Assembly: GCA_027451505.1 (NCBI GenBank)
Contig: DAIDJD010000122.1
Location: 1 to 39,823 of the forward strand
Length of the DNA stretch: 39,823 nucleotides
Direction of reading: 5' to 3'
Source: a candidate division FCPU426 bacterium
GTDB lineage: Bacteria; Oederibacteriota; JAJYGY01; DAIDJD01
Below, piece by piece: positions 14,793 to 27,040 of the stretch (position 1 is the first letter of the stretch; each line of letters opens with the position of its first letter). Position numbers and translations under genes: made by a program. The notes under the pieces were generated by a model that ran no database searches, was not told where the DNA came from, and was given only the letters and a program-made list of their open reading frames with translations.

Positions 14793-15166
14793 GCGGACTC
14801 CGAGGGGGTGGAAGGGAAGGTTTAGGATACGCGAAGGAGGTTACGGGGCGGGGAAGGGGAGGGTTTGGTGGGGGCTGGGGTGCGTGGGAGAGATGTTTCG
14901 GTAATATGGCATATTGTTTCCATAAAATTATATGCAATTAAGAAATATATTTAAAATAATTGGATAATTCCAATATTTTGTCTATTGGGATTAACGCAAT
15001 ATATAAAAAATTAGTATCTGAATATATAAATTATGGGATATATGAATATAAAATATTCAAATTTTGTTATTTAATTTATGATATGAATTAAAATTAATAA
15101 TAAAATTGAAAATATAATAAAATAAATTTATATATATATAATAACAATGCCAAATAAGAATATCAT
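14793..15166. other. Extremely AT-rich intergenic region
   Basis: A gene-free gap. From about 14897 to 15180 composition collapses: by count, 14941-15120 holds 25 G or C in 180 bases (14%), against roughly 70% around it. It separates the divergent DoxX-like gene from the secretion-like cluster. Two short inverted repeats are visible: AATATG-G-CATATT at 14903-14915 and GAATAT-AAA-ATATTC at 15044-15058. Promoter-like words are abundant in such DNA; TTGAAA (15106-15111) with TATATA (15129-15134), 17 bases apart, is one choice for the downstream gene. No tRNA, integrase or attachment site is seen. Such DNA often binds nucleoid silencers and marks acquired regions. Confidence 0.85.
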
Positions 15167-16117
15167 TTGAATACAAATAGACCCTCTCATTGCAAACGAA
15201 GCGGCAAAGTCCTGGGATTGGCCCTGGCCTTGGTGCCGGTGTCCCTGGGAGCCATGCAGTCCGCTGGAACGAATATCTCGGCTGAACGGAGCGCCGTCCT
15301 TCGCTTTTTGGAAGAGCTCGCTGATAGCCCGGGACTGGGTCCGACCAACGCCATGCCGTCCGTCCAACGCCTTCCCGGAGTCGGTGCATTGCCACTTCGA
15401 AATGCCCCACGGGCGCGTGAAAAGCCTTTCAATTTGGCCCTTGCCGATTCCGATGGCGCGCGCGCAGGCGCGGCGCTTTCGATCCTTACCGCACTGGGTG
15501 AACTTGCCGTCCAATCCATCGACACCCCCTTCCAGGCGGAGTTGGCTTCGGCGCTTCAACAGGACGGCACCGCATTGGTCGGATCCTCCAACGGGGCCTT
15601 GGCCGAACAGGGAGGCCTGCTTCAGGAAGAGTCCAGCGCAGTCACGCTGGGCGACGCGCCGACGGCGCAGTCCTTCGTTGCATCGATGTCTTCCATAACC
15701 CCACCAAACCAGGCTGGAGTGCCGACCGCCGCTGACCAAGCTTGGATCGCCGCCCTGCAACAGTCCACATCCTCCCTGGTCGCGAGTGTCGTCTCGGCGA
15801 TGTCCCAAAGCGCCCTCGCTGAGCTCGGGGCGTGGCTCGGGAGTTTTGAAAACACCCAAACAGGCACACCAGGCACCCAATGGATCGATTCGTTGCTGCA
15901 GTCCCTGCCCGGCGCCCAGTCGACATCGGGATGGGCGGCGGGGAACCCCGCCATGACCTCTTGGGCCGGCCCAGCGTTGAGCACAGGTTCCGCCCGTCCT
16001 CCCGCGGGGGGCGCGTCCCTTGGAGGAACGCTGACCGAACCTATGGGCGCCGCCAACCAGCCGCTGGCTCCGGGCCTAGGTTCGAGCCAGGGCGGTGTGC
16101 TTCCCGGCACCCATTGA
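15167..16117 (+). CDS. Secreted Ala/Ser-rich protein A, paralogue of the next gene
   Basis: 316 residues from TTG 15167, the first start after an in-frame TAA at 15155. A signal peptide spans about 1-29 (cleavage near SLGA-MQS). The mature protein is rich in Ala, Ser, Gly and Gln, with helical stretches and a Gly/Pro-rich C-terminus. It shares with the next protein SAERSAVLRFLEELADSPG (compare VTEQRRAVLAFLEVLAMSD) and GSSNGALAEQGGLLQEES (compare GSSNPRVQQTSGVLAQES), in the same order. No known family is recognised. Being first in a VirB-like operon, it might be a secreted VirB5-like minor pilin, an adhesin or a substrate; this is inference from position. The ribosome site is weak. Confidence 0.7.
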   Translation: MNTNRPSHCKRSGKVLGLALALVPVSLGAMQSAGTNISAERSAVLRFLEELADSPGLGPTNAMPSVQRLPGVGALPLRNAPRAREKPFNLALADSDGARAGAALSILTALGELAVQSIDTPFQAELASALQQDGTALVGSSNGALAEQGGLLQEESSAVTLGDAPTAQSFVASMSSITPPNQAGVPTAADQAWIAALQQSTSSLVASVVSAMSQSALAELGAWLGSFENTQTGTPGTQWIDSLLQSLPGAQSTSGWAAGNPAMTSWAGPALSTGSARPPAGGASLGGTLTEPMGAANQPLAPGLGSSQGGVLPGTH

Positions 16118-16129
16118 AGGGCCGCCGCC

Positions 16130-17014
16130 TTGGGTAACGCCATCCATTGCGGGCTCGTCCTGTGGACGATCTGCGTCCCCGCCCTGGGGCAAAGTACCCA
16201 GATGGCCATGCCATCCAGATCTGCAGCCGTCACCGAGCAGCGAAGGGCGGTCCTGGCGTTCCTGGAGGTTCTGGCCATGTCGGACCGGAGCGCTTCCGGG
16301 CGTTACATGCCGGATTCCCCCTCCGGGGGGCCGCCCTGGAGCCTCCGTGAAGCCGTCCAAAGACCAAAGGACGCCCAGGCGGTGAACGACATCGTGGGCA
16401 CGGCGGTCATCATCGCCGCACTCGGCGCTCTCAGCGTCGGAAGCGCCGCGCAAGGCGAACAAGCATCCCTGTTGGCGGATTACGCGGCCTTCCTTTCCGG
16501 GTCTTCGAATCCGAGAGTCCAGCAGACCTCGGGTGTCCTGGCCCAGGAATCGACCGCCGTCGCGCAGGGCGCCGGATACCAGGCAACGGCGTTGGCAAGC
16601 GCCCTGGCCGCCGTAGCGCCGGAATCGAACGCAGCGGCGGGGCAAGTCGAAATCTCGGACCAAACCTTGGAAAAGGCGTTATCCGCGGGATCGGAATTCG
16701 ACTGGAATTCGATGCTGGCGGTGCTGGGCCAAGCAGCCGTGGCGGCTCTGCAGGGAGCCATCGTCGGCGGCGGATACGGCGCATTGGCGGCGGCGGCCCT
16801 TTCACTCATGGAATCCGCGATTCAAGGGGAGTTTCAGGCCGGCGCCGTGGAAGGCGGAGTGCCGGACGTGGCCGCGCCGGGACCTGCGGCGTCGAACCAC
16901 GGCGACTTGGGCGCACCCTTGGCGGTTCCGTCAGGGGCCGCCTCGATCACCCTCAGGCCCGGCACAGGCGCCGCGCCGGGGGGCGTCCTGGTGGGCGCCC
17001 AGACAACCCCATGA
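16130..17014 (+). CDS. Secreted Ala/Ser-rich protein B, paralogue of the previous gene
   Basis: 294 residues from TTG 16130, 12 bases after the previous stop. The signal peptide is short (about 1-20, ending near ALG-QST). Its order of segments matches protein A: a helical EQRRAVLAFLEVLAM motif early, a SGSSN...GVLAQESTAV motif mid-protein, and a C-terminus ending in GGVLVG, as A ends in GGVLPG. Two glycine-rich hydrophobic stretches (TAVIIAALGALSVGSAA and AALQGAIVGGGYGALAAAAL) may insert into membranes or pack as helical hairpins. No known family is recognised. The tandem duplication at the head of the operon suggests paired structural subunits or exported effectors. Confidence 0.7.
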   Translation: MGNAIHCGLVLWTICVPALGQSTQMAMPSRSAAVTEQRRAVLAFLEVLAMSDRSASGRYMPDSPSGGPPWSLREAVQRPKDAQAVNDIVGTAVIIAALGALSVGSAAQGEQASLLADYAAFLSGSSNPRVQQTSGVLAQESTAVAQGAGYQATALASALAAVAPESNAAAGQVEISDQTLEKALSAGSEFDWNSMLAVLGQAAVAALQGAIVGGGYGALAAAALSLMESAIQGEFQAGAVEGGVPDVAAPGPAASNHGDLGAPLAVPSGAASITLRPGTGAAPGGVLVGAQTTP

Positions 17015-17030
17015 CTTTTCCGGAGAGATG

Positions 17031-17381
17031 ATGAACAGAACAAGGCCACTAAACGCCGGACCGCTACTGGCGGCGGGCGCGCTCCTGCTACTGCCCGTGG
17101 CCGCATGGGCCATGGATCCGAATTCCGCAAGCGCCTCCATCATGGGCTACGCGTGGCGCATCACCAACTTCATATGCGGAGTCAGTGCGATTTTTGTCGT
17201 GGGCGACATAGCCTGGCACGCCCGGGACATGAGCGAACACGGGCGCAGGGTCAAGGCGGGGTTCATGGCCTTGGTGCTCCTGGGATGCCTATATGGCGTT
17301 GCCGCGTTCATCCTCAGCGCCGCGGATTCCCAAGGTACTTCCGTGAGCGGCCTGGACAGCGCGATGAACATGAAGCCCTGA
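17031..17381 (+). CDS. VirB2/TrbC-like pilin subunit
   Basis: 116 residues: a long signal peptide with the site AWA-MDP near residue 27, then two membrane helices (about 40-60 and 76-95) joined by a short charged loop (HARDMSEHGRRVK). That layout is the hallmark of type IV secretion and conjugation pilins (VirB2, TrbC), which are cleaved, held in the inner membrane and then polymerised. Sequence similarity in this family is low, so the call rests on topology, size and its place before VirB6-, VirB3- and VirB4-like genes. ATG 17031 has GGAG at 5 bases; an ATG directly before it is too close to that site. The stop overlaps the next ATG by one base (TGATG). Confidence 0.72.
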   Translation: MNRTRPLNAGPLLAAGALLLLPVAAWAMDPNSASASIMGYAWRITNFICGVSAIFVVGDIAWHARDMSEHGRRVKAGFMALVLLGCLYGVAAFILSAADSQGTSVSGLDSAMNMKP

Positions 17382-19120
17382 TGGGCCCGCGTTTCCAGGA
17401 AAAGCGGAGGTTCCGGACCTGCGCGACGGTCGCCGCGGTGCTGGTGCTATGTCTCACGGCACAGACCGGATTTGCTGGCGCTAGTGCCGGCCAAGTCCAG
17501 CAGATCGTGAATGGTGCCGACCAAACTTGGATGTCCCGTCTCATCAACGGGATGTTCAACAACGTGCTTTATGCACTAACCGCGTGGCTGGAGCTGGGTC
17601 TATACGGCGTATGGCTGGTGGTCACCTGGTCCGTGGTACGCCTCTATTCGGGAATCGGGACGTACCTGATACCGATCTGGGACTTCACCAACGGGTCCGG
17701 CTTTTTCCAAACCGGAGAAGCCGCCGCGCGGGCGGCGGTGGAGGTGCCCCCCGCGGCTGCGCAACTGCTCCAAAGCATGGTCCCTTGGATCCTCTCGCTC
17801 TGTGGACTGCTCATGTTTGGCCTCGCGGCCCTGGGTATACCGAGCTACGCGAAGGATTCCGAAGAACCCTTCGCGGCCATCGGGGGCCTGGCGGTATCCG
17901 CCGGACTCATGGTCGCCTTCCCCCTCCTCTATTCCGTGCCCATCCACGTCGGGGACTTCCTGGGTCGGGAATTTTACGAGGCTTCCCACGTACGCTATGC
18001 CGAAACCGCGGGGTGGGGCACGAACGGCACGCCGCCCAGCCTCTTTTCGATCTTGATTCAAGGGAGCGTATTCCCGAATTCCGTAGAAGGCACCGGTCCG
18101 CCGGGCTCCTCGCTCTCCACCGCCGTAGGTTCGGCGCTTCAGGGCGCCACGTCCGGGATCACACAGGCACCCTCCGCCGTCACCGAAACCGCGCAACTGG
18201 AGGGAGCCTACAACTACCTAAACCAACAGTTGGCCAGCGGGGGGAACATTTCGCTCGCGTGGTCCGCCGCGAAGGACGCGGTCATGTACAACCTAGAGAC
18301 GCAGGCGAGCCGCTTCATACAGGTCATTTTGGGGATCATGGCGCTGGTGGCGTTGGTGGGTCTCCTGATGCTTAAGGGCGGGCAGATCGTGGCCCTAGTG
18401 CTGAGCTACTACCTTGGGTGGATCGCTTGCGCACTCTATGTCCACCCTGCGACGCGGCCGGTCTTCGGTTTGTGGCTGAAGAACCATTTGAAGCTTTGCC
18501 TTTGGGGGTTCCTCTGGGCGGCGTTGATTTTCGTGATGGATATTCTGGTGGTCGGATGCCAGGACCTTCCGGGGATGACGCCCCTTCCCGGAACGCCCGG
18601 GGCCTTCATGGACGTGGGGATGTTCCTAATGCCGTTTATGCTCTTCGCCGCGGTCCATAAATTCAAGAGCGTCGGTGAACTGGCAGACTCGATGACCGCC
18701 ACCGGGCGAATCGCGTCCGCGGCGGGCCGTTCCGTGCATGAGGCCTTCGACGCCGGATTAAGGCGGGTGCCATCGGATGTGATCAAGGCCGGGGGCCGCG
18801 GAAGCGTCCACGGAAAATTGGGCCAATCCGTCATCGACATGAGCAAAACGTTCGCCGTCCGCATGGAACGCCTCGCGGCATCGGCGTCCGCGGCCGCCTC
18901 GACTTGGCCTGGTGTCGGCCCGATGGCCGCCTGGACGGCCCGCCAGGCCTTTTTGAACCTGGGCGAGACGGCCTCATCCGTCGGGCAAATAATGGGAACC
19001 GCCATCCGCGGGGTGAATCGCTTCCACGGCGCGCCCAAGGAGGAAAGCGACTGGTTGGAGCGCTCGCAGGAGCGGCCGAAGTACTTCGTCCAGGATCTGC
19101 GGCCGCCGGAAAGCCGGTAG
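17381..19120 (+). CDS. VirB6/TrbL-like polytopic membrane protein
   Basis: 579 residues: a signal-like N-terminal helix (about 10-33), then at least six membrane helices between residues 55 and 430, with a large non-hydrophobic loop of about 110 residues (roughly 190-300) that probably faces the periplasm. A soluble C-terminal region of about 130 residues, rich in Ala, Arg and Ser, should lie in the cytoplasm. Size and layout fit the VirB6/TrbL class, the inner-membrane channel part of type IV secretion systems; sequence identity in this class is very low, so the call relies on topology and neighbours. Start ATG 17381 overlaps the pilin stop. A VirB3-like gene follows after 9 bases. Confidence 0.68.
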   Translation: MGPRFQEKRRFRTCATVAAVLVLCLTAQTGFAGASAGQVQQIVNGADQTWMSRLINGMFNNVLYALTAWLELGLYGVWLVVTWSVVRLYSGIGTYLIPIWDFTNGSGFFQTGEAAARAAVEVPPAAAQLLQSMVPWILSLCGLLMFGLAALGIPSYAKDSEEPFAAIGGLAVSAGLMVAFPLLYSVPIHVGDFLGREFYEASHVRYAETAGWGTNGTPPSLFSILIQGSVFPNSVEGTGPPGSSLSTAVGSALQGATSGITQAPSAVTETAQLEGAYNYLNQQLASGGNISLAWSAAKDAVMYNLETQASRFIQVILGIMALVALVGLLMLKGGQIVALVLSYYLGWIACALYVHPATRPVFGLWLKNHLKLCLWGFLWAALIFVMDILVVGCQDLPGMTPLPGTPGAFMDVGMFLMPFMLFAAVHKFKSVGELADSMTATGRIASAAGRSVHEAFDAGLRRVPSDVIKAGGRGSVHGKLGQSVIDMSKTFAVRMERLAASASAAASTWPGVGPMAAWTARQAFLNLGETASSVGQIMGTAIRGVNRFHGAPKEESDWLERSQERPKYFVQDLRPPESR

Positions 19121-19129
19121 GGAGGCGAC

Positions 19130-19480
19130 GTGCCCATCGACATAAATGAGGACATAAAGGTTTGGGGCGGATTCACCCCGATGGAATTCTGGGCCGGGGC
19201 GTCGATCCTGGTGCTGTTGGCGCTTATCGCTTTGTCCTTGGGCGCACGCACCTCCGCGCTCTGGGGCGGGATCTTTTTTTTCGCTTCGGGTGGTTCGTTC
19301 TTCGGGTTCATGGTCTACCGCCGGAGCCTGCCAAAGGGCCTGTTGCTCCGCAGGTTTCTCCAGGACGGCCGGTTTCTTTTCATAACTATCCCCTGGATCA
19401 AGGCGCCCACGGTTTACCATCCGTGGGGGAGGGGACGCGCCGAGCGCTTCCGGGAGCAGTACGGGAGCAGGGATGAATAG
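19130..19480 (+). CDS. VirB3-like inner-membrane protein
   Basis: 116 residues starting with GTG 19130 after GGAGG. A short soluble start (INEDIKVWGGFTPMEFW) leads to two close helices (about 19-39 and 43-63) and a basic cytoplasmic tail (RRSLPKGLLLRRFLQDGRF). VirB3/TrbD proteins have this size and helical hairpin, and lie directly before VirB4, to which they bind. Here the next gene is VirB4-like and its start overlaps this stop by 8 bases. The first residues resemble the N-terminal strand seen in VirB3 proteins. Assignment is by topology and position. Confidence 0.7.
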   Translation: MPIDINEDIKVWGGFTPMEFWAGASILVLLALIALSLGARTSALWGGIFFFASGGSFFGFMVYRRSLPKGLLLRRFLQDGRFLFITIPWIKAPTVYHPWGRGRAERFREQYGSRDE

Positions 19481-21977
19481 CCGGGAGCCCACCGTGGAAG
19501 GCCTATGGCCGGAACTGCGCGCCATGCACGGCCACTTGGTGTTGGACGAACGGGAGTTTGTCGCCGCGTTCGAGCTGCGCTCGGGTTTGAATCCGGTGAC
19601 CGCCGATTCGAAGGACTACGAGCGCGCGGTCAAGCGCTTTCAAGACGCTCTTGAGGACCTCCGGCCAGGGGAGCGCGTTCAGTTACTGGTGGATTGCTCG
19701 CGATACAACCCCGAAGCGGACCTTGAGCGGATGCGGAACCAGGTGTCCGACGAGTCCCCCCAGGGCCACCGTGGGTATTACGCGCCGAGCATGGAGACGC
19801 ATTTGCGTGGTTACTGCGCCTTGAGCTTCGTGCCCGAGTTCAACTACCACCTGTTGTTCAGTTGTCCATCCCGGCGGGAAGCGCGGCCGACGAATCCAGG
19901 TCAGTTGCGGGAAGCTCTCGATCAGGTGCGTTTGAGGAGCGGCGAATTCGCGAGGCATCTTTCCGGCGGGGATCTGGTCTGCAAACCGTTGGATGAAAAA
20001 GGCGTCCAGGAATTGCTCGACAGAACCCTGAATCCAAGCCGGTTGGCCCCGCTTCCTGGGGGCGTCCTCTCCTCCGGCGGTGCGACCGGTCTGGAAGAAG
20101 GCGGAGGCCCCCTTTTCCGATCGCCGGTATTGTTGAAGGTGGGTGAGGGGGACCCCCGGTATTCATGCATTCAGGTCGGGCGCCGTTTGGTCCGGACCAT
20201 GGGCTTCCTCAGGGCGCCGCTGGGAGATGAAGCCCTGCGCGTCGCCATGGCTGAACTGATGCTATGCGGCAGGTCTTTTCGGTTCAGCATTTTCGTGGAG
20301 GGAATCTCCCAGGAGCGCGCGGCACAAGTGGTGCAGAAAAAGCGCGCGGCTGCCCTAGGCGCCGTGACTTTCGGAGAGGGCAAAGCCACCCAGGCATCCG
20401 AGGAGCAAGCCGCGGAATATGACGCGTTGCTTCGCGCCCATGCGCGCCGGGAGCTCAAGTTCGTAAGGTGGTCCGCGTACCTCTCGGTTTCGGCCGACAA
20501 CCGCCCTGAATTGGACCAAGCCAGCGGGGAGTTGGGCGGCCTCCTCAACGCGTTGGTGCCCGATGAGGGTATTTTAAGGCAGTTGGAGTATTGGCAGGCG
20601 ACCCAACCCTTGTGCAGGGACACGGGGGGCAACCCGCTCCTCGCCCGGAGCGATGCGGTGGCGTCGCTTTATCCGTTTTTCGAGTTCCGCAGCACCAGCC
20701 CTGAGGGCGGCGCGCTGTTGGGCTTCAGCCCCGCCAACCAGCCCTGCTTTTACGACCCTTGGAGCCGGGTCGTGAGCAACGGGAACGTCTTCGTCACCGG
20801 CCAAGCCGGCAGCGGCAAGTCATTCCTGATCAATCTCGTGGTGAACCGCTTGGGGATGCGGGCGCTCGACGTGAGCTTTATCGACCGGGCCAAATCCTAC
20901 CGATCGACGTGCATGGCATTGGAGGGGGATTACATAGAATTCGATCTCAACGGATCCCAAGCGGTCAACGTCTGGGACGTTCTGGAGTACGACCCTGCGT
21001 TCGACGAAGCGGGCCTCAACGACCTGGATCGGTCGGGTCGGGTGCTCCCCGAAAAGTTGGAACAGGTGGCGGGCTGCCTTGAGATCGTGCTGGCGGACGG
21101 GGGCGCGGATTTGCCCAAGCTCGAGCGCTCGTTGCTCCTCGAGGACATCGCGGAAACCTACCGGCGCCGCCTGCGCTTCTCTGGCGGCGTATTGGCCCAG
21201 GCAAGCGTACCTTGCTTCGGGGACCTCGCCGAGACCATCGCCACGAGGGTGTCCTCGGGCGGCGATTTCGCCGCTGAGCGCAAGGAAATGCTCCAAAAGT
21301 TGCGGCCCGTGGTCGGGGGACATCTGGCCGGCCTGCTGAACCGTCCGACGACCTTAACTGCCGGTTCACGTGCCCGGGTATTCGACATCTCCAACCTTCC
21401 CGAAAACTCTACGGTGCTCGGGGCGGCGGTGTATGTCCTGGCGGCGTGGCTATACCGCCATTGGCGGCGGAACAAAGCCATGGAGCGGCGCCAGATCGTG
21501 GTCTTCGACGAAATCCATTCCTTTATGGGATTCGAATCCGGCAGGCGACTGCTCGACGCGCTTGCGCGCAGGAGCCGCCATATGGGTCTCATGCCGTTTT
21601 TCGCCACCCAACAACTCTCCGATGTCCTGGACTACAAGGAAACGCGGAGCATTCTGGACAACTGCCAGACCCAATTCCTTTTCGCGCAGGCCCGCAACGT
21701 GATCGACCGGGTGACCGACCTCCTGAAGCTCACCGACCACGAACGGGTCCATCTCGAAAACCTCAGGCAGGTACGGGGCGTCTACAGCACCGCGTTTTTC
21801 GTATACGGCTCGCAGCGCAACATCATCACGGTTCGGCCGGATCCGGTGACCCGGTGGCTGAACACCACCGAGCCAACCCATGACCTACCCAGGCTCAACC
21901 GAGCCTTGCGCGATGCGGGCGGCGACATCTGGGCCGCCGTCCGTGCCTTGGCGCAGGCGGACGCGCAGACGGCCTAA
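19473..21977 (+). CDS. VirB4/TraC-family ATPase
   Basis: 834 residues. VirB4 ATPases power pilus assembly and substrate transfer in type IV secretion systems, at the inner membrane. The N-terminal 400 residues are the VirB4-type domain; the ATPase domain has Walker A GQAGSGKS (443-450), Walker B IVVFDEIHSF (Asp679-Glu680), and the later ATQQLSDVLDYKETRSILDNC and YGSQRNIITVRPDPVTRW with TTEP, features seen in VirB4/TraC/TrbE. It is the most securely recognised gene of the cluster. It overlaps the VirB3-like gene by 8 bases, and the VirB8-like gene starts 2 bases after its stop. No VirD4- or VirB11-type ATPase accompanies it. Confidence 0.92.
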   Translation: MNSREPTVEGLWPELRAMHGHLVLDEREFVAAFELRSGLNPVTADSKDYERAVKRFQDALEDLRPGERVQLLVDCSRYNPEADLERMRNQVSDESPQGHRGYYAPSMETHLRGYCALSFVPEFNYHLLFSCPSRREARPTNPGQLREALDQVRLRSGEFARHLSGGDLVCKPLDEKGVQELLDRTLNPSRLAPLPGGVLSSGGATGLEEGGGPLFRSPVLLKVGEGDPRYSCIQVGRRLVRTMGFLRAPLGDEALRVAMAELMLCGRSFRFSIFVEGISQERAAQVVQKKRAAALGAVTFGEGKATQASEEQAAEYDALLRAHARRELKFVRWSAYLSVSADNRPELDQASGELGGLLNALVPDEGILRQLEYWQATQPLCRDTGGNPLLARSDAVASLYPFFEFRSTSPEGGALLGFSPANQPCFYDPWSRVVSNGNVFVTGQAGSGKSFLINLVVNRLGMRALDVSFIDRAKSYRSTCMALEGDYIEFDLNGSQAVNVWDVLEYDPAFDEAGLNDLDRSGRVLPEKLEQVAGCLEIVLADGGADLPKLERSLLLEDIAETYRRRLRFSGGVLAQASVPCFGDLAETIATRVSSGGDFAAERKEMLQKLRPVVGGHLAGLLNRPTTLTAGSRARVFDISNLPENSTVLGAAVYVLAAWLYRHWRRNKAMERRQIVVFDEIHSFMGFESGRRLLDALARRSRHMGLMPFFATQQLSDVLDYKETRSILDNCQTQFLFAQARNVIDRVTDLLKLTDHERVHLENLRQVRGVYSTAFFVYGSQRNIITVRPDPVTRWLNTTEPTHDLPRLNRALRDAGGDIWAAVRALAQADAQTA

Positions 21978-21978
21978 A

Positions 21979-22581
21979 ATGGAGGGGACGGTGGAGCAGA
22001 AGGACTATGATTACCTCGATTTCGGATCGCCGCCATTGCGCAGGGAGGGGCGCGGGAGGTCCGGCTGGGGCGTTCCGGTCCTGGCCGGGGTGGTGGGGGT
22101 CATTTGCGTGGGACTATGCTTTTTCGCCGCGAAGACGCTCCTGGGCGGCCACGCGACGGCGCAGGACAACGTGGGATCCATAAGCCCGGACGACCTCGAA
22201 AAGCGGCAAATGGCCGCCTTCGTCGAAGACTTCCTTCCCGCCTATTACGGATTCTCCTACGCCTTCTATGACCAAAGTGTGTCCAAGGCGGAGTCCATGA
22301 TGACTCCTGAATTCCAGGCCGCCTACGACCAGCGCGCCGAGGACTTGGATTTCAAGAGAAGGCTCTCCGCGCTCAGGGTTGTCACGGACGGAATACGGAT
22401 CCTGCCGGGCAGCATGGAATTCGCGCGTCAGGGACCCATGTTCTATGTGCGACTTGCGGGGACCATGACCTACACCACGGGCATCAACGGAGCCAGGGGG
22501 GACTTTCCGCTGGCGCTTCTTGTCTCCCTGAAAAAGGGCGGGGACGGGTTCCTCGTCGACAACGTCGAGCGTCTCCGATGA
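21979..22581 (+). CDS. VirB8/TrbF-like bitopic membrane protein
   Basis: 200 residues: a short charged cytoplasmic start, one helix (about 28-50, GVPVLAGVVGVICVGLCFFAA), then a periplasmic domain of about 150 residues with helices followed by strands, ending in LVDNVERLR. Size and layout match VirB8/TraE/TrbF, whose periplasmic domain has an NTF2-like fold and links inner-membrane parts of the secretion complex. ATG 21979 lies right after the VirB4 stop but lacks a ribosome site; GTG 21991, with GGAGG 5 bases upstream, is an equally good start. The stop overlaps the TPR gene by 4 bases. Similarity is structural by inspection only. Confidence 0.6.
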   Translation: MEGTVEQKDYDYLDFGSPPLRREGRGRSGWGVPVLAGVVGVICVGLCFFAAKTLLGGHATAQDNVGSISPDDLEKRQMAAFVEDFLPAYYGFSYAFYDQSVSKAESMMTPEFQAAYDQRAEDLDFKRRLSALRVVTDGIRILPGSMEFARQGPMFYVRLAGTMTYTTGINGARGDFPLALLVSLKKGGDGFLVDNVERLR

Positions 22582-23363
22582 CGCCCACGGCCGACGCCAT
22601 GGCGGCGGCGGCGGAGGCCGAGGTCCAGCGCGCCCAGGCGCTCTTGGGTGTGGCCCCTCAGCAGGCCCATCGGCACCTGCTCGAGGCGCGGCACCTGAAT
22701 CCCGGGGATGTCAGGGTCGGCGAGCTCCTCGCCGGGCTGGAGATAAGGTTGGGCTATTACCGGGAGGCCCTGGGTCATCTGAGGGATGTCGCCGTCCTGG
22801 TCGCCGAGACTCCGGGAGGTTTGGCTCTGGCGGGGCTGTGCAACCTGCGTCTCGGTCGGATCGAGGACGCCTTGGATCTGTCCTGCAGGGCGCTGGCCCT
22901 CGACGGGGCCAACCCCGTGGCCTTGGAGGTGCGGGCCGATTGCAGGAAGGCCGGGGCGCACTGGCAGGACGCCGCGCGGGATTATCGGGAGTTGCTTGGC
23001 CGTGAGGGAAGGCAGCCCTCCCGGGCCCGGATCGAGTTCAAGCTTGCAGGGTGCTTGGCGGAGATGGGGGCCCATACGGCGGCCTGGGAAATCGCCGATG
23101 GGTTGCTGCGGCGTGGATACGATGCGAAAGCGGTCCGGGAATTGCGCCGGAGATGCGAATTGGGAAACCGGCGGGAATTGAGCGCCGTGATGGGCGCCTC
23201 CGGATGGTGGGAGCGGGTGGCCATGCGCTTCGCGGCGCGTCCCCTTGCGCGGGCCTTCTCCCTATGCCGGACCCGTGAGGTCGGCAGGAAGGCCGCGGCC
23301 TCGGTGCCGGATACGGGTTTCGTGGGCGAGGGCCCGCGTACGACCACCGAGAACGGGACGTGA
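22578..23363 (+). CDS. TPR-repeat protein
   Basis: 261 residues, mostly helical, with four or five degenerate tetratricopeptide repeats, for example REALGHLRDVAVLVAETPGG and RIEDALDLSCRALALDGANP. There is no signal peptide or membrane helix, so it is probably cytoplasmic, unless it is exported some other way. TPR proteins scaffold assemblies; in this operon it could organise the VirB4/VirB8 base or dock a substrate. Both ends overlap neighbours by 4 bases (ATGA at the start, GTGA at the end), showing tight coupling. TPR proteins are not standard parts of VirB-type systems, which makes it one of the unusual members of the cluster. Confidence 0.72.
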   Translation: MTPTADAMAAAAEAEVQRAQALLGVAPQQAHRHLLEARHLNPGDVRVGELLAGLEIRLGYYREALGHLRDVAVLVAETPGGLALAGLCNLRLGRIEDALDLSCRALALDGANPVALEVRADCRKAGAHWQDAARDYRELLGREGRQPSRARIEFKLAGCLAEMGAHTAAWEIADGLLRRGYDAKAVRELRRRCELGNRRELSAVMGASGWWERVAMRFAARPLARAFSLCRTREVGRKAAASVPDTGFVGEGPRTTTENGT

Positions 23364-24535
23364 CGGGGCCCGGGCTGGCCCTGGTCGCGGCGGCGCTGGT
23401 GGCCCCGGCTTGGCTCCATGGATTCGAGATCGCGACGAACCCTGGGGACTTGACCGGTACCGCGGTCGTGCAACAGGACTACACCATCGGGTACCTATGG
23501 AGGCAGGACGTCCAGGGTTGCGTCTACGGGCCCTTTGTGGACGCCGATCTTAGGCAAAAGCTCGTCGATAACTTCACGGCGCGGGCGGACCTGAGGATCT
23601 TCAAGGCCGCCGGCAGCGACGATCCGGCGGGCATCTTCCTGGAAGACGCGGATGTCGCCTATGTGGGGTCTTGGCTGAGCGTGATGGGCGGTCGACGGGA
23701 TCTCACCGATTTCCTGGGGCCGGGGCGGTTTTTCGGGGCCTACTCCACGATGGGGGAGCGCTGGCTCGACTCCATCGGCGCGACGGTGCCGTTTAGGTTC
23801 ACCGCGGACATCCCGGACGCGGACGCCGAGGTGGCGGCCCCCTACAACGCCCTGTCGATCCTATATGTGCCCGACCTTTTCGACACGGCTGTGTCGGACT
23901 TTTCCGGCAGGCAGGGGCTTGTCCTTGCCCAACTAAAGGCAAAATTCAGGATAAAGGAGGATTCCGCGGACGCCATGGTCAACGGCACCTATGGATTGGC
24001 GGACTGGTTCTTGAACAGCCCGGTGGACGAAACCGGGTCCCTGGATGCCAGCGCGGATTTCCGGGGCGGCGGATGGAAGCTTTGGGGCGAGTGGGCGATG
24101 CAAAATCTCGTCCGCGGGTCCGGCACATCGGTCCTCGCCGCGGGGGGGACCCTGGGCATCGCCCGATGGACCCTGAACGCCCTGCGCGATCTCGCCGTCG
24201 AGGTCCAGATCCCCCTGGGAAGCGACCCGGCCAATCCCTTCACCGGCGGGGATCCCCAGGATCCGCTTCTGGGCGGGACACCCAGCTATTGCTGGTTCGT
24301 CCAGCTCCGGGGCGATTGGGGAAGCCGGGGCGGGGACCAGCGCCTGGGGCTTTTTTACGGTGCCGCCGTCACCACGTCCGTGGGCGATTACACGTTGGCC
24401 CGGTTGGCCAACGGTACCCTGAACCAACCTCTGGGATCAGGCTTCGGGGAGGGGTACCGGGTGCAGTACATGAGCCTACGGGCGTCCAGCTACCAAGCTC
24501 CGGCGGGGATCGTGTACGCCGGCTATAGGTTCTGA
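23360..24535 (+). CDS. Candidate outer-membrane beta-barrel protein
   Basis: 391 residues from GTG 23360. The short signal peptide (about 1-20, ending near LHG-FEI) is followed by a protein with alternating polar and hydrophobic residues, many aromatic residues and no long hydrophobic helix. The last residues, IVYAGYRF, end in Phe with alternating hydrophobic positions, as in outer-membrane barrels recognised by BamA. It is the only barrel-like protein in the cluster and could form the outer-membrane exit or a surface receptor. No family is recognised; a periplasmic beta-rich protein remains possible. It overlaps the TPR gene and lies 1 base before the next gene. Confidence 0.6.
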   Translation: MTGPGLALVAAALVAPAWLHGFEIATNPGDLTGTAVVQQDYTIGYLWRQDVQGCVYGPFVDADLRQKLVDNFTARADLRIFKAAGSDDPAGIFLEDADVAYVGSWLSVMGGRRDLTDFLGPGRFFGAYSTMGERWLDSIGATVPFRFTADIPDADAEVAAPYNALSILYVPDLFDTAVSDFSGRQGLVLAQLKAKFRIKEDSADAMVNGTYGLADWFLNSPVDETGSLDASADFRGGGWKLWGEWAMQNLVRGSGTSVLAAGGTLGIARWTLNALRDLAVEVQIPLGSDPANPFTGGDPQDPLLGGTPSYCWFVQLRGDWGSRGGDQRLGLFYGAAVTTSVGDYTLARLANGTLNQPLGSGFGEGYRVQYMSLRASSYQAPAGIVYAGYRF

Positions 24536-24536
24536 G

Positions 24537-25118
24537 ATGGTCCCCCCCGGCGTTCTGCGGCGCGCGTGCATGGCGAGCGCGCTCTGCGCGGTCCTTTTCA
24601 CCGTTGCCCCCGGATCCCTTCGGGCGACCGATCGGGCGGACGTGGACCGGGAGACGGCGGTGGACGACAGCTTCCAATGGGCCGAGGGCATCATCGAGGC
24701 GCTCGGCGCCCTGGCCCCTCCCTTGCCGCCGATCCCGCCGCCCGCCGTGTGGGCGCCACGGCGGGCCAAACCACGCCGAGCCCGGATACGCGTGAGGCGT
24801 GGCCCGCCGCCTTTCGTGGTTCGGCACTTTATGCTCCACAGGAGCACGGTGTTCGGGATTTTCGACCTTACCGTGGACGAAACGTCGCCGGAGTCCTTCG
24901 ATTTGGTCGTGGGATCGGACGAGCCCGCCGAGGAAGTGCAGATCCAGGATCGATACACCCATGCCATCGTGTTGGAGCGTCCTTTGGACGACGAGCGGGT
25001 GTTCCGCGTCCACGTGCCCGGGGCGTTCAGCCGGCGCCTGGCCGTGTGCGTCAGCCTTTCCCAAGCCGGAGAGATAGACAAGGCGTATTTCCCGCTTTTC
25101 GAGAGGGGATCCAGATGA
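24537..25118 (+). CDS. Secreted protein with Pro/Arg-rich spacer, unknown
   Basis: 193 residues. A signal peptide (about 1-30, ending near LRA-TDR) precedes a short acidic stretch, then a spacer rich in Pro and Arg (LAPPLPPIPPPAVWAP followed by basic residues), then about 100 residues of likely beta structure (FDLTVDETSPESFDLVVGS, RVFRVHVPGAF). A Pro-rich spacer before a beta domain recalls periplasm-spanning parts such as VirB10 or TonB, but there is no membrane anchor and no sequence match that I can name. It is a candidate periplasmic link or lost-anchor core component. The next gene's start overlaps its stop by 4 bases. Confidence 0.6.
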   Translation: MVPPGVLRRACMASALCAVLFTVAPGSLRATDRADVDRETAVDDSFQWAEGIIEALGALAPPLPPIPPPAVWAPRRAKPRRARIRVRRGPPPFVVRHFMLHRSTVFGIFDLTVDETSPESFDLVVGSDEPAEEVQIQDRYTHAIVLERPLDDERVFRVHVPGAFSRRLAVCVSLSQAGEIDKAYFPLFERGSR

Positions 25119-25903
25119 AACGGAGGTCCGCGAACCCGAGAACGTCGGCGTCGAGCCGGGCAAGGCGCACGGCTATACTCGCGATGGTGTGCCTGGCGAT
25201 GGCTGCCTCCGGATGTCGGGGTCCCCAGGGAGCCGCCGGGCCCATGGGCCCGGCGGGCGGCGTGGCATCGCCGACCTACATGTTCAATGAGGATTTTGAC
25301 GAGGCCACGTTCCCTTCGGGTGAATGGACTGTCGAAGACCCCAATGGCACGGTCCATTCCTTTTCCGCAGATTCGGCGGCGGGCCAGTACATCTCGTATC
25401 CCAACAGCGGCATCCTTTCTTGGGATGCGGGTACGCCGGGTCCAGGGGCCGGTCTGTGGACCACAAGTGGTCTTTGGAGTATCCCAAATGGGAAGGATTG
25501 CTATTTTGATGTTTTTATAAATCTTGGAAATCTTATGGTGGGTGACGAAACGGAGGTGACTCTTAATATAGGTAGTGACACGGTTGCGTCTCTGGGGTTT
25601 TCCTTGCAGCCGTCTGAGTTGTGCAACATCTATACCTACCAATCCGGAAGCCCTTATACAGTTGAGTTCGGGATTTCCACCCTGAACTGGCATCATGTGG
25701 TCCTTTATTGGAACCATTCCACGGGGCTTTCCTCGGTCACTCTGGACGGCATGCTCTTGGGCCAGAATATCAACGGGAAGCGCTCCCTGCCCACCGGAGC
25801 CCCAGGGACCAGTGCTGGAGTGTTGTTCCCGAAATGGAATTGGCCCGGGGGTACTTCGGCCCAGGAAGTGCTTCTGGATAATTTTTCTCTTTATTACTAC
25901 TGA
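25115..25903 (+). CDS. Lipoprotein with collagen-like segment and lectin-like domain
   Basis: 262 residues. A basic start, a hydrophobic segment and the lipobox AASGC (Cys34) mark it as a lipoprotein. Right after the Cys come four Gly-X-Y triplets (GPQGAAGPMGPAGG). The remaining 210 residues look like a concanavalin A/LamG-type sandwich: NEDFDEATFPSGEWTVEDPN at the start, TLNWHHVVLYWNHSTGLSSV, and LLDNFSLYYY at the end, a pattern seen in carbohydrate-binding or surface modules. It is probably outer-membrane or surface exposed. Bases 25490-25700 are clearly richer in A and T than the rest of the cluster. ATG 25115 has AGGGG upstream. Confidence 0.75.
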   Translation: MKRRSANPRTSASSRARRTAILAMVCLAMAASGCRGPQGAAGPMGPAGGVASPTYMFNEDFDEATFPSGEWTVEDPNGTVHSFSADSAAGQYISYPNSGILSWDAGTPGPGAGLWTTSGLWSIPNGKDCYFDVFINLGNLMVGDETEVTLNIGSDTVASLGFSLQPSELCNIYTYQSGSPYTVEFGISTLNWHHVVLYWNHSTGLSSVTLDGMLLGQNINGKRSLPTGAPGTSAGVLFPKWNWPGGTSAQEVLLDNFSLYYY

Positions 25904-25909
25904 CCGCCC

Positions 25910-27040
25910 ATGGAAATCAGGGGTTCCTTTGCAACGGCTGCCCTTCTTCTAGCGCTGGGTTGGGTGGCTGGATGTGAAAGCCACATGCCTTTGGATGCCG
26001 TGGTCAATCCTCAGCCGATCAACGGGCAAATCACGGCTTGGGTCGATAACGGCGCTTCGGTAGTCGGTGGTCAGTCAATCACGGTGGTGGCTCCCAATGG
26101 AGAATCGCAGACTAAATTAAGTTCGATTTCGGGGACTGTCAGCACCGCCCAAACCGGAGAAGCGATTTTCCAAGAACCGCTGAGTGGCACCTACCAAGTG
26201 TTCCTCACCCCAGCGCCTGGGGTGACTCCCCTGATTCAGGATGTGGCCCTAACCCCAGGGCAACCCTACAACACCGTGACCCTTCAACTCCTGGGGACCT
26301 ACCTCGCCGTCACCGAGCCCGACGGAAAGCCGCTGAGCTACGACGACACCCAGACCTATCACACCTTCCGCTTGACCGCCGAAAGCGCCAGCTTGAGCGC
26401 TACGGTCAACGTGTTCTACAACCCCGCAGCTTCGGCGGTGCCGCCGGGCTGGGTGGTGTCCATGGGGCCCGCGACGCTGGCCCCGGGCCAGGGCACCGAT
26501 CTGGTGCTGTACACCCAGCCCGGGACCGCTTTCGGCAACGTGACCGTCGTCGTCTCCGCGATCACCAGCGCCAGTGTGCCCCTGGCGGTGGCGCCCATCG
26601 TCCTCACGCAGTCCTGGAGGCCCGAACTAATCCTCAACTTCACGGGATCGAGCTGTTGCCCCGGCGCGACCGATGTGATGGACGAGAGCGTGCAGTTCGA
26701 ATGCCTCGACTGCGTCAACCAGGAGTCCGCCTTCGTCTCGCTCACGATGAACACGGGATGCGCCATCGTCACGCCCTACCCCTCCTCGGCCACGCTCACG
26801 GCCGGATCCACCTGGCACGCGATAGGGGGGGAGCAGGTGGCCGATGCCTGCGACGGATCGGGCCCCACCTCCGAGGGCTGCATTCCCAACAATTCGGGGG
26901 GAGTGGGCCCCGAGACCGAGCAGTGGCAGTACGTGACCTGCGTCATCCTCTCCAATCCCGGCCAAAACTTGGTTCAAGCCCCTTTTCCGGTGTACTGCGG
27001 CCTGGCCCAGGTGGGCGGAAGCCTCACCCTGGGGTGGTAG
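25910..27040 (+). CDS. Cys-rich lipoprotein, last gene of the secretion-like cluster
   Basis: 376 residues with signal sequence and lipobox WVAGC (Cys22). The first third (about 30-130) looks like a carboxypeptidase-regulatory or Ig-like beta domain: GQITAWVDNGASVVGGQSIT, then a loop and LSGTYQVFLTPAPGV. A second beta module follows (about 135-245), and the last 130 residues contain nine Cys (SSCCPG, ECLDC, ACDGSG, EGCIP, YVTC, VYCG), suggesting disulfides in an exported domain. Base composition rises from moderately AT-rich at the 5' end to host-like GC-rich by about 26300. It is probably surface exposed. A 14-bp palindrome, 27036-27049, overlaps the stop and may end the operon. Confidence 0.7.
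   Translation: MEIRGSFATAALLLALGWVAGCESHMPLDAVVNPQPINGQITAWVDNGASVVGGQSITVVAPNGESQTKLSSISGTVSTAQTGEAIFQEPLSGTYQVFLTPAPGVTPLIQDVALTPGQPYNTVTLQLLGTYLAVTEPDGKPLSYDDTQTYHTFRLTAESASLSATVNVFYNPAASAVPPGWVVSMGPATLAPGQGTDLVLYTQPGTAFGNVTVVVSAITSASVPLAVAPIVLTQSWRPELILNFTGSSCCPGATDVMDESVQFECLDCVNQESAFVSLTMNTGCAIVTPYPSSATLTAGSTWHAIGGEQVADACDGSGPTSEGCIPNNSGGVGPETEQWQYVTCVILSNPGQNLVQAPFPVYCGLAQVGGSLTLGW

Follow-up and report, generated by a model that had tools for sequence, protein, structure and literature searches.

A VirB4-containing operon of a candidate phylum FCPU426 bacterium with a predicted porin-like barrel as a possible replacement for the VirB7/B9/B10 core

The question raised by this locus is how a secretion machine built around a VirB4-family ATPase might reach the surface of a cell with two membranes in a lineage in which VirB9 and VirB10 are not detected. 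The window, that is, the whole stretch of 39,823 nucleotides that was analysed, comes from an uncultured, two-membraned bacterium of the candidate phylum FCPU426. Within an operon of VirB2-, VirB6-, VirB3-, VirB4- and VirB8-like genes it contains three overlapping or abutting genes (22578–25118) that encode a TPR protein, a candidate outer-membrane barrel (hereafter BAR) and a small exported protein (hereafter J). No published description of a type IV secretion system (T4SS) in FCPU426 was found in the literature.

The operon and its inner-membrane genes

From about position 15167, the operon consists of two exported genes of the AB family, VirB2-, VirB6- and VirB3-like genes, VirB4, a VirB8-like gene, the TPR gene, BAR, J and two lipoprotein genes, LK and LL (Table 1). 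The AT-rich stretch that precedes it probably harbors the promoter. The VirB8-like and TPR genes overlap by 4 bases, as do the TPR and BAR genes, and a single base separates BAR from J; the genes that follow the lipoproteins (after 27040) were assigned to cobalamin biosynthesis by reading the sequence. The GC3 values of the island (0.63–0.82, compared to 0.92–0.97 in the flanking genes) mark it as compositionally foreign, and for this reason its coding signal is weaker than that of the flanks. A check for marks of integration found no tRNA in the window and no direct repeat of at least 12 bases common to both flanks of the island. The AB family is represented here by a tandem of two paralogues (15167–17014); relatives usually possess one copy.

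Profiles of the protein families built without the window sequence (window-free profiles) recover every family of the operon, the VirB2-like and LL genes as weak matches only. Judging from this and from the recurrence of each family in syntenic loci of the phylum, the three genes at 22578–25118 are real; the sequence-only reading, which had placed three overlapping or abutting genes between the VirB8-like gene and the lipoproteins, is borne out by their coordinates as well.

Table 1. Features of the island and of its upstream region (positions in the window)
Feature	Coordinates	Strand	Basis
AT-rich stretch (28.6% GC in a 70% GC contig), directly upstream of the operon	14800..15166	.	composition
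AB family, copy 1; exported, largely helical, 316 aa	15167..16117	+	window-free profile 3e-5; 30% identity to next gene
AB family, copy 2; exported, 294 aa	16130..17014	+	window-free profile 1e-7
VirB2-like (pilin-like) small exported membrane protein	17028..17381	+	position, topology; weak profile match 0.08
VirB6/TrbL-like polytopic protein, 579 aa	17381..19120	+	family profile 2e-18
VirB3/TraL-like small membrane protein	19130..19480	+	family profile 1e-5; TIGR03750 0.014
VirB4-family ATPase, 834 aa	19473..21977	+	TraC-F-type 1e-34, VirB4_CagE 1e-25; PDB VirB4 4ag5 6e-36, TrwK 1e-20
VirB8-like bitopic protein, 200 aa	21979..22581	+	window-free profile 2e-14
TPR protein, 261 aa	22578..23363	+	weak Pfam TPR matches; window-free profile 1e-8
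BAR, predicted porin-like outer-membrane barrel protein, 391 aa; GTG start, C-terminus IVYAGYRF	23360..24535	+	window-free profile 2e-63
J, small exported partner, 193 aa; signal peptide, helix, Pro/Arg-rich spacer, C-terminal beta domain	24537..25118	+	window-free profile 1e-11
LK lipoprotein; short collagen-like GPxG stretch after the lipid-anchor Cys	25115..25903	+	sequence; blastp 1e-11 to L018 homologue
LL lipoprotein; lipobox VAGC	25910..27040	+	sequence; blastp 5e-5 to L022 homologue

VirB4 together with the VirB8-, VirB6-, VirB3- and VirB2-like genes resembles a minimal inner-membrane set. The ATPase scores below every curated cut-off (F, CagE, CD1110 and Bacteroidetes types), with 119.5 bits against a cut-off of 567 bits in the best case. 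One member of the VirB6 family matches Pfam TrbL at 4e-5, and comparison of the VirB8 family profile with PDB identifies OmamC (2e-4) and an IcmL-like protein (4e-4). The features by which a T4SS is recognized that are found here are the VirB4-family ATPase, VirB6, VirB8 and a VirD4-type coupling protein.

The coupling protein is encoded in 8 of the 45 genomes of the phylum, including 6 of the 7 that contain VirB4, and shares a contig with the T4SS in three cases (G044:C68, G029:C87 and G029:C47). In the window genome it lies on another contig (G000:C108), beside a Replic_Relax-like gene whose assignment is based on similarity to its neighbours at other loci. The linked loci also contain genes for ParA, ParB, Replic_Relax, TopB, SSB and RPA; the linkage of coupling-protein, ParA/B and TopB genes suggests a conjugative element. 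A relaxase of the MobA/VirD2 family (PF03432), the family searched genome-wide, was found in none of the 45 genomes. The same is true of VirB10 (PF03743) and VirB9 (PF03524) in searches whose positive controls worked. The host is an LPS-bearing diderm, the window itself carrying genes for a lipid A acyltransferase (Lip_A_acyltrans), LptC and an LptA-type protein.

The predicted barrel, its exported partner and the lipoproteins

Prediction places BAR in the outer membrane. The AlphaFold model contains 16 antiparallel strands, the final one ending at the C-terminus, with a low-confidence mean pLDDT of 49, which is partly due to the use of alignments of 5 sequences, the loci from the phylum genome search having been left out; the structure matches should therefore be read with care. 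A Foldseek search started with this model identifies outer-membrane porins in nearly all of the best 50 PDB matches (the best at 3.5e-5; TM to the hits about 0.4). Pfam, NCBIfam and PDB sequence searches with BAR yield no match. The family combines the features expected of a barrel, namely a signal peptide, an even number of antiparallel amphipathic strands (as far as the low-confidence model goes) and a terminal aromatic residue, with F, Y or W in the last position of complete members. The period-2 hydrophobicity of BAR reaches a z of 4.9, and that of the other operon families is near zero or negative. A barrel in this gene, suspected in the sequence-only reading from its C-terminus, is what structure prediction returns, with the confidence given above; no barrel-less structure was obtained.

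In L024 (14264–15952), the BAR protein has about 170 additional N-terminal residues, and in L084 (3940–8795; G041:C105) one T4SS is adjoined by two tandem BAR genes with LL lipoproteins. The copy in L080 (9434–10441; G022:C31) is broken by an in-frame TAA and is probably a pseudogene; the T4SS locus of the same genome is without an adjacent BAR.

For J, AlphaFold predicts a confident C-terminal beta-sandwich (strands at residues 97–186, pLDDT about 90), which follows the Pro/Arg-rich spacer (PPLPPIPPPAVWAPRRAKPRRARIRVRRGPPP). Its structure matches are weak, the best being Ig/FnIII-like, with no known T4SS component and neither VirB9 nor VirB10 among the best 50, and Pfam, NCBIfam and PDB sequence searches with J give no match. 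L079 (12375–13412) and L078 (5697–6557) encode fusions of the J beta domain to TPR repeats at the C-terminus, with a BAR gene nearby and no T4SS genes. In a third orphan locus BAR lies near a J gene, so BAR and J occur together in some loci that are free of T4SS genes. From their joint presence in three orphan loci, BAR and J appear to work as a pair.

Collagen-like lipoproteins with GPxGPxG stretches recur beside BAR, in the window (25115–25903), in L018 (12707–13498) and in L080 (10644–11345). In each, the stretch directly follows the lipid-anchor Cys or stands at the N-terminus and is succeeded by a beta-rich domain.

Distribution and co-divergence

Relatives of VirB4 are present in 7 of the 45 phylum genomes. 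The BAR family, searched with a profile built from T4SS loci, is present in 11, namely every one of the 7 VirB4-positive genomes and 4 of the 38 others (Fisher 7e-6, uncorrected for host phylogeny); one of these 4 has a truncated VirB4 locus. The co-occurrence with the VirB4-like gene that the sequence-only reading led one to expect is thus observed, and the homologues of BAR are not always found apart from VirB-like genes. The T4SS gene set recurs in 13 further BAR-containing contig loci of the phylum, several of them cut by contig ends. The order in the relatives is lipoprotein(s)-BAR-J-AB-VirB2-VirB6-VirB3-VirB4-VirB8-TPR, in some followed by TopB; the window differs in that the BAR-J-lipoprotein block is located downstream instead of upstream. 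T4SS loci, some of them at contig ends, account for 15 of about 21 BAR copies, and the remaining 6 have no VirB-like genes nearby. In L021 a T4SS locus stands without BAR beside it.

Evolutionary distances within BAR closely follow those within VirB4 (r = 0.93, 6 of 5040 permutations, uncorrected for host phylogeny), more so than those of VirB6 (0.79) or VirB8 (0.64). In the tree, the orphan BAR copies branch among those from T4SS loci. A scan of genome contigs with the window VirB4 alone yielded no relatives, an alignment of 9 VirB4 rows contained no stretch of sufficient conservation for scanning, scans of viral contigs with VirB4 and with BAR gave no match, and no BAR was found in the plasmids searched for it.

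Possible architecture, rival readings and known systems

The membership of the BAR-J-lipoprotein module in the T4SS is well supported. The reading favored here, with a probability of roughly 55%, is that of a conjugation-type T4SS of FCPU426 whose outer-membrane part consists of BAR, J and the lipoproteins and takes the place of the VirB7/B9/B10 core. The island (15167–27040) would then be the mating-pair-formation part, supplied with DNA by the VirD4-type coupling protein. The most likely role of BAR would be that of an anchor or docking ring in the outer membrane, to which the beta domain of J binds; a role as the exit pore itself is conceivable but less likely. A barrel of 16 strands leaves little width for a pilus or for a strand carrying a relaxase, so that passage of the substrate through the lumen of BAR appears doubtful, and an exit for DNA made of a porin-type BAR and its beta-domain partner, with no VirB7/B9/B10 ring at all, is unlikely.

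The sequence-only reading went further in proposing all three genes of 22578–25118 as the replacement for VirB7/B9/B10. The predicted barrel, its co-occurrence with VirB4 and the failure to detect VirB9 and VirB10 favor a replacement; the TPR protein has to be taken out of it. No signal peptide was found in this protein, which is therefore probably cytoplasmic and an improbable substitute for an envelope-spanning core; on this ground, an envelope core formed by all three genes was rejected. The TPR protein would instead act on the cytoplasmic side.

Somewhat unlikely is an accessory role in which BAR is a porin or adhesin made together with the T4SS that mediates surface contact, stabilises mating pairs or surrounds the exit as a ring of porins; the exit itself would be built by other proteins, for instance those of the AB family or the lipoproteins. 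The narrow pore of a 16-stranded barrel and the existence of copies apart from T4SS genes are in line with such a role. So are the porin rings reported around the Dot/Icm complex (the Legionella OMCC) and the porins co-purified with the R388 T4SS (PMC12857230). What the accessory role leaves unexplained is an operon devoid of any other recognisable outer-membrane channel, and a divergence of VirB4 that is tracked more closely by BAR than by VirB6 or VirB8. It is rather improbable that J is a reduced, diverged VirB10- or VirB9-like protein to which BAR is an addition: the order of its parts is VirB10-like (an N-terminal hydrophobic helix, a Pro-rich spacer and a confident C-terminal beta domain), and according to a 2025 review no bridge between the inner- and outer-membrane complexes is known other than VirB10 (PMC12857230), yet the family lacks a sequence-profile match, prefers Ig/FnIII-like structures to those of VirB9 or VirB10, and consists of proteins of just 144–226 aa, usually with a signal peptide. 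Least credible is a general phylum-specific porin that adjoins T4SS genes by chance and has no part in the machine. That six copies have no VirB-like genes nearby and branch in the tree within those of T4SS loci would be expected of such a bystander, but loss of T4SS genes or co-option explains the nested orphans equally well, and the presence of BAR in all 7 VirB4 genomes and its strong co-divergence speak against it.

In the model T4SS of diderms, the link between the two membranes is VirB10. A conserved diderm T4SS without detectable VirB9 and VirB10 and with a co-diverging barrel would demonstrate that the part in the outer membrane can be exchanged, and would offer a defined gene set for working out the minimal requirements of a VirB4/B6/B8 machine for crossing the outer membrane. 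Searches that demand VirB9 or VirB10 would probably miss such elements as conjugative.

Among known proteins, the 16-stranded porins OmpC, OmpM1 and PorB share with BAR the predicted number and order of strands and the terminal aromatic residue, whereas sequence homology is not detectable and the BAR model is of low confidence. The Myxococcus stipitatus plasmid pYRE has a similar layout, with ParA, ParB, a coupling protein, a pilin-like protein, VirB4 (profile 8.5e-90) and a topoisomerase, but no homologues of BAR, J, AB or the lipoproteins; Pfam returns nothing for the other exported gene of the plasmid region. Despite the related coupling-protein, VirB4 and pilin-like genes, pYRE (L106) is typed as non-mobilizable; it is possibly an unrecognised conjugative plasmid. 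The T4SS of monoderms (FA/FATA) and Patescibacteria likewise consist of an inner-membrane set without VirB7/B9/B10 (PMC12102498), and further links are the weak TcpC matches of the VirB8 family and the relatedness of VirB4 to that of Levybacteria; the FCPU426 host, in contrast, is a two-membraned cell that has lipid A and Lpt genes as well as a dedicated exported barrel module. The association of beta-barrel porins with a T4SS is shared with the Dot/Icm porin arrays (PMC12857230), except that those porins decorate a VirB10 (DotG) channel, whereas FCPU426 lacks a detectable VirB10 and encodes the barrel within the operon. With the diderm VirB/D4 and F-type systems (R388, F), finally, the FCPU426 system has in common VirB4 (the best curated match being TraC-F-type), the VirB2-, VirB3-, VirB6- and VirB8-like genes and a VirD4-type coupling protein in the genome; it differs from them in the lack of detected VirB9, VirB10 and MobA/VirD2-type relaxase, in a VirB4 far below the curated cut-offs, and in the addition of a porin-like barrel, J and lipoproteins to the operon. 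Such an operon, with a barrel, an exported partner and lipoproteins where VirB9 and VirB10 would be expected, suggests a different way to the cell surface.
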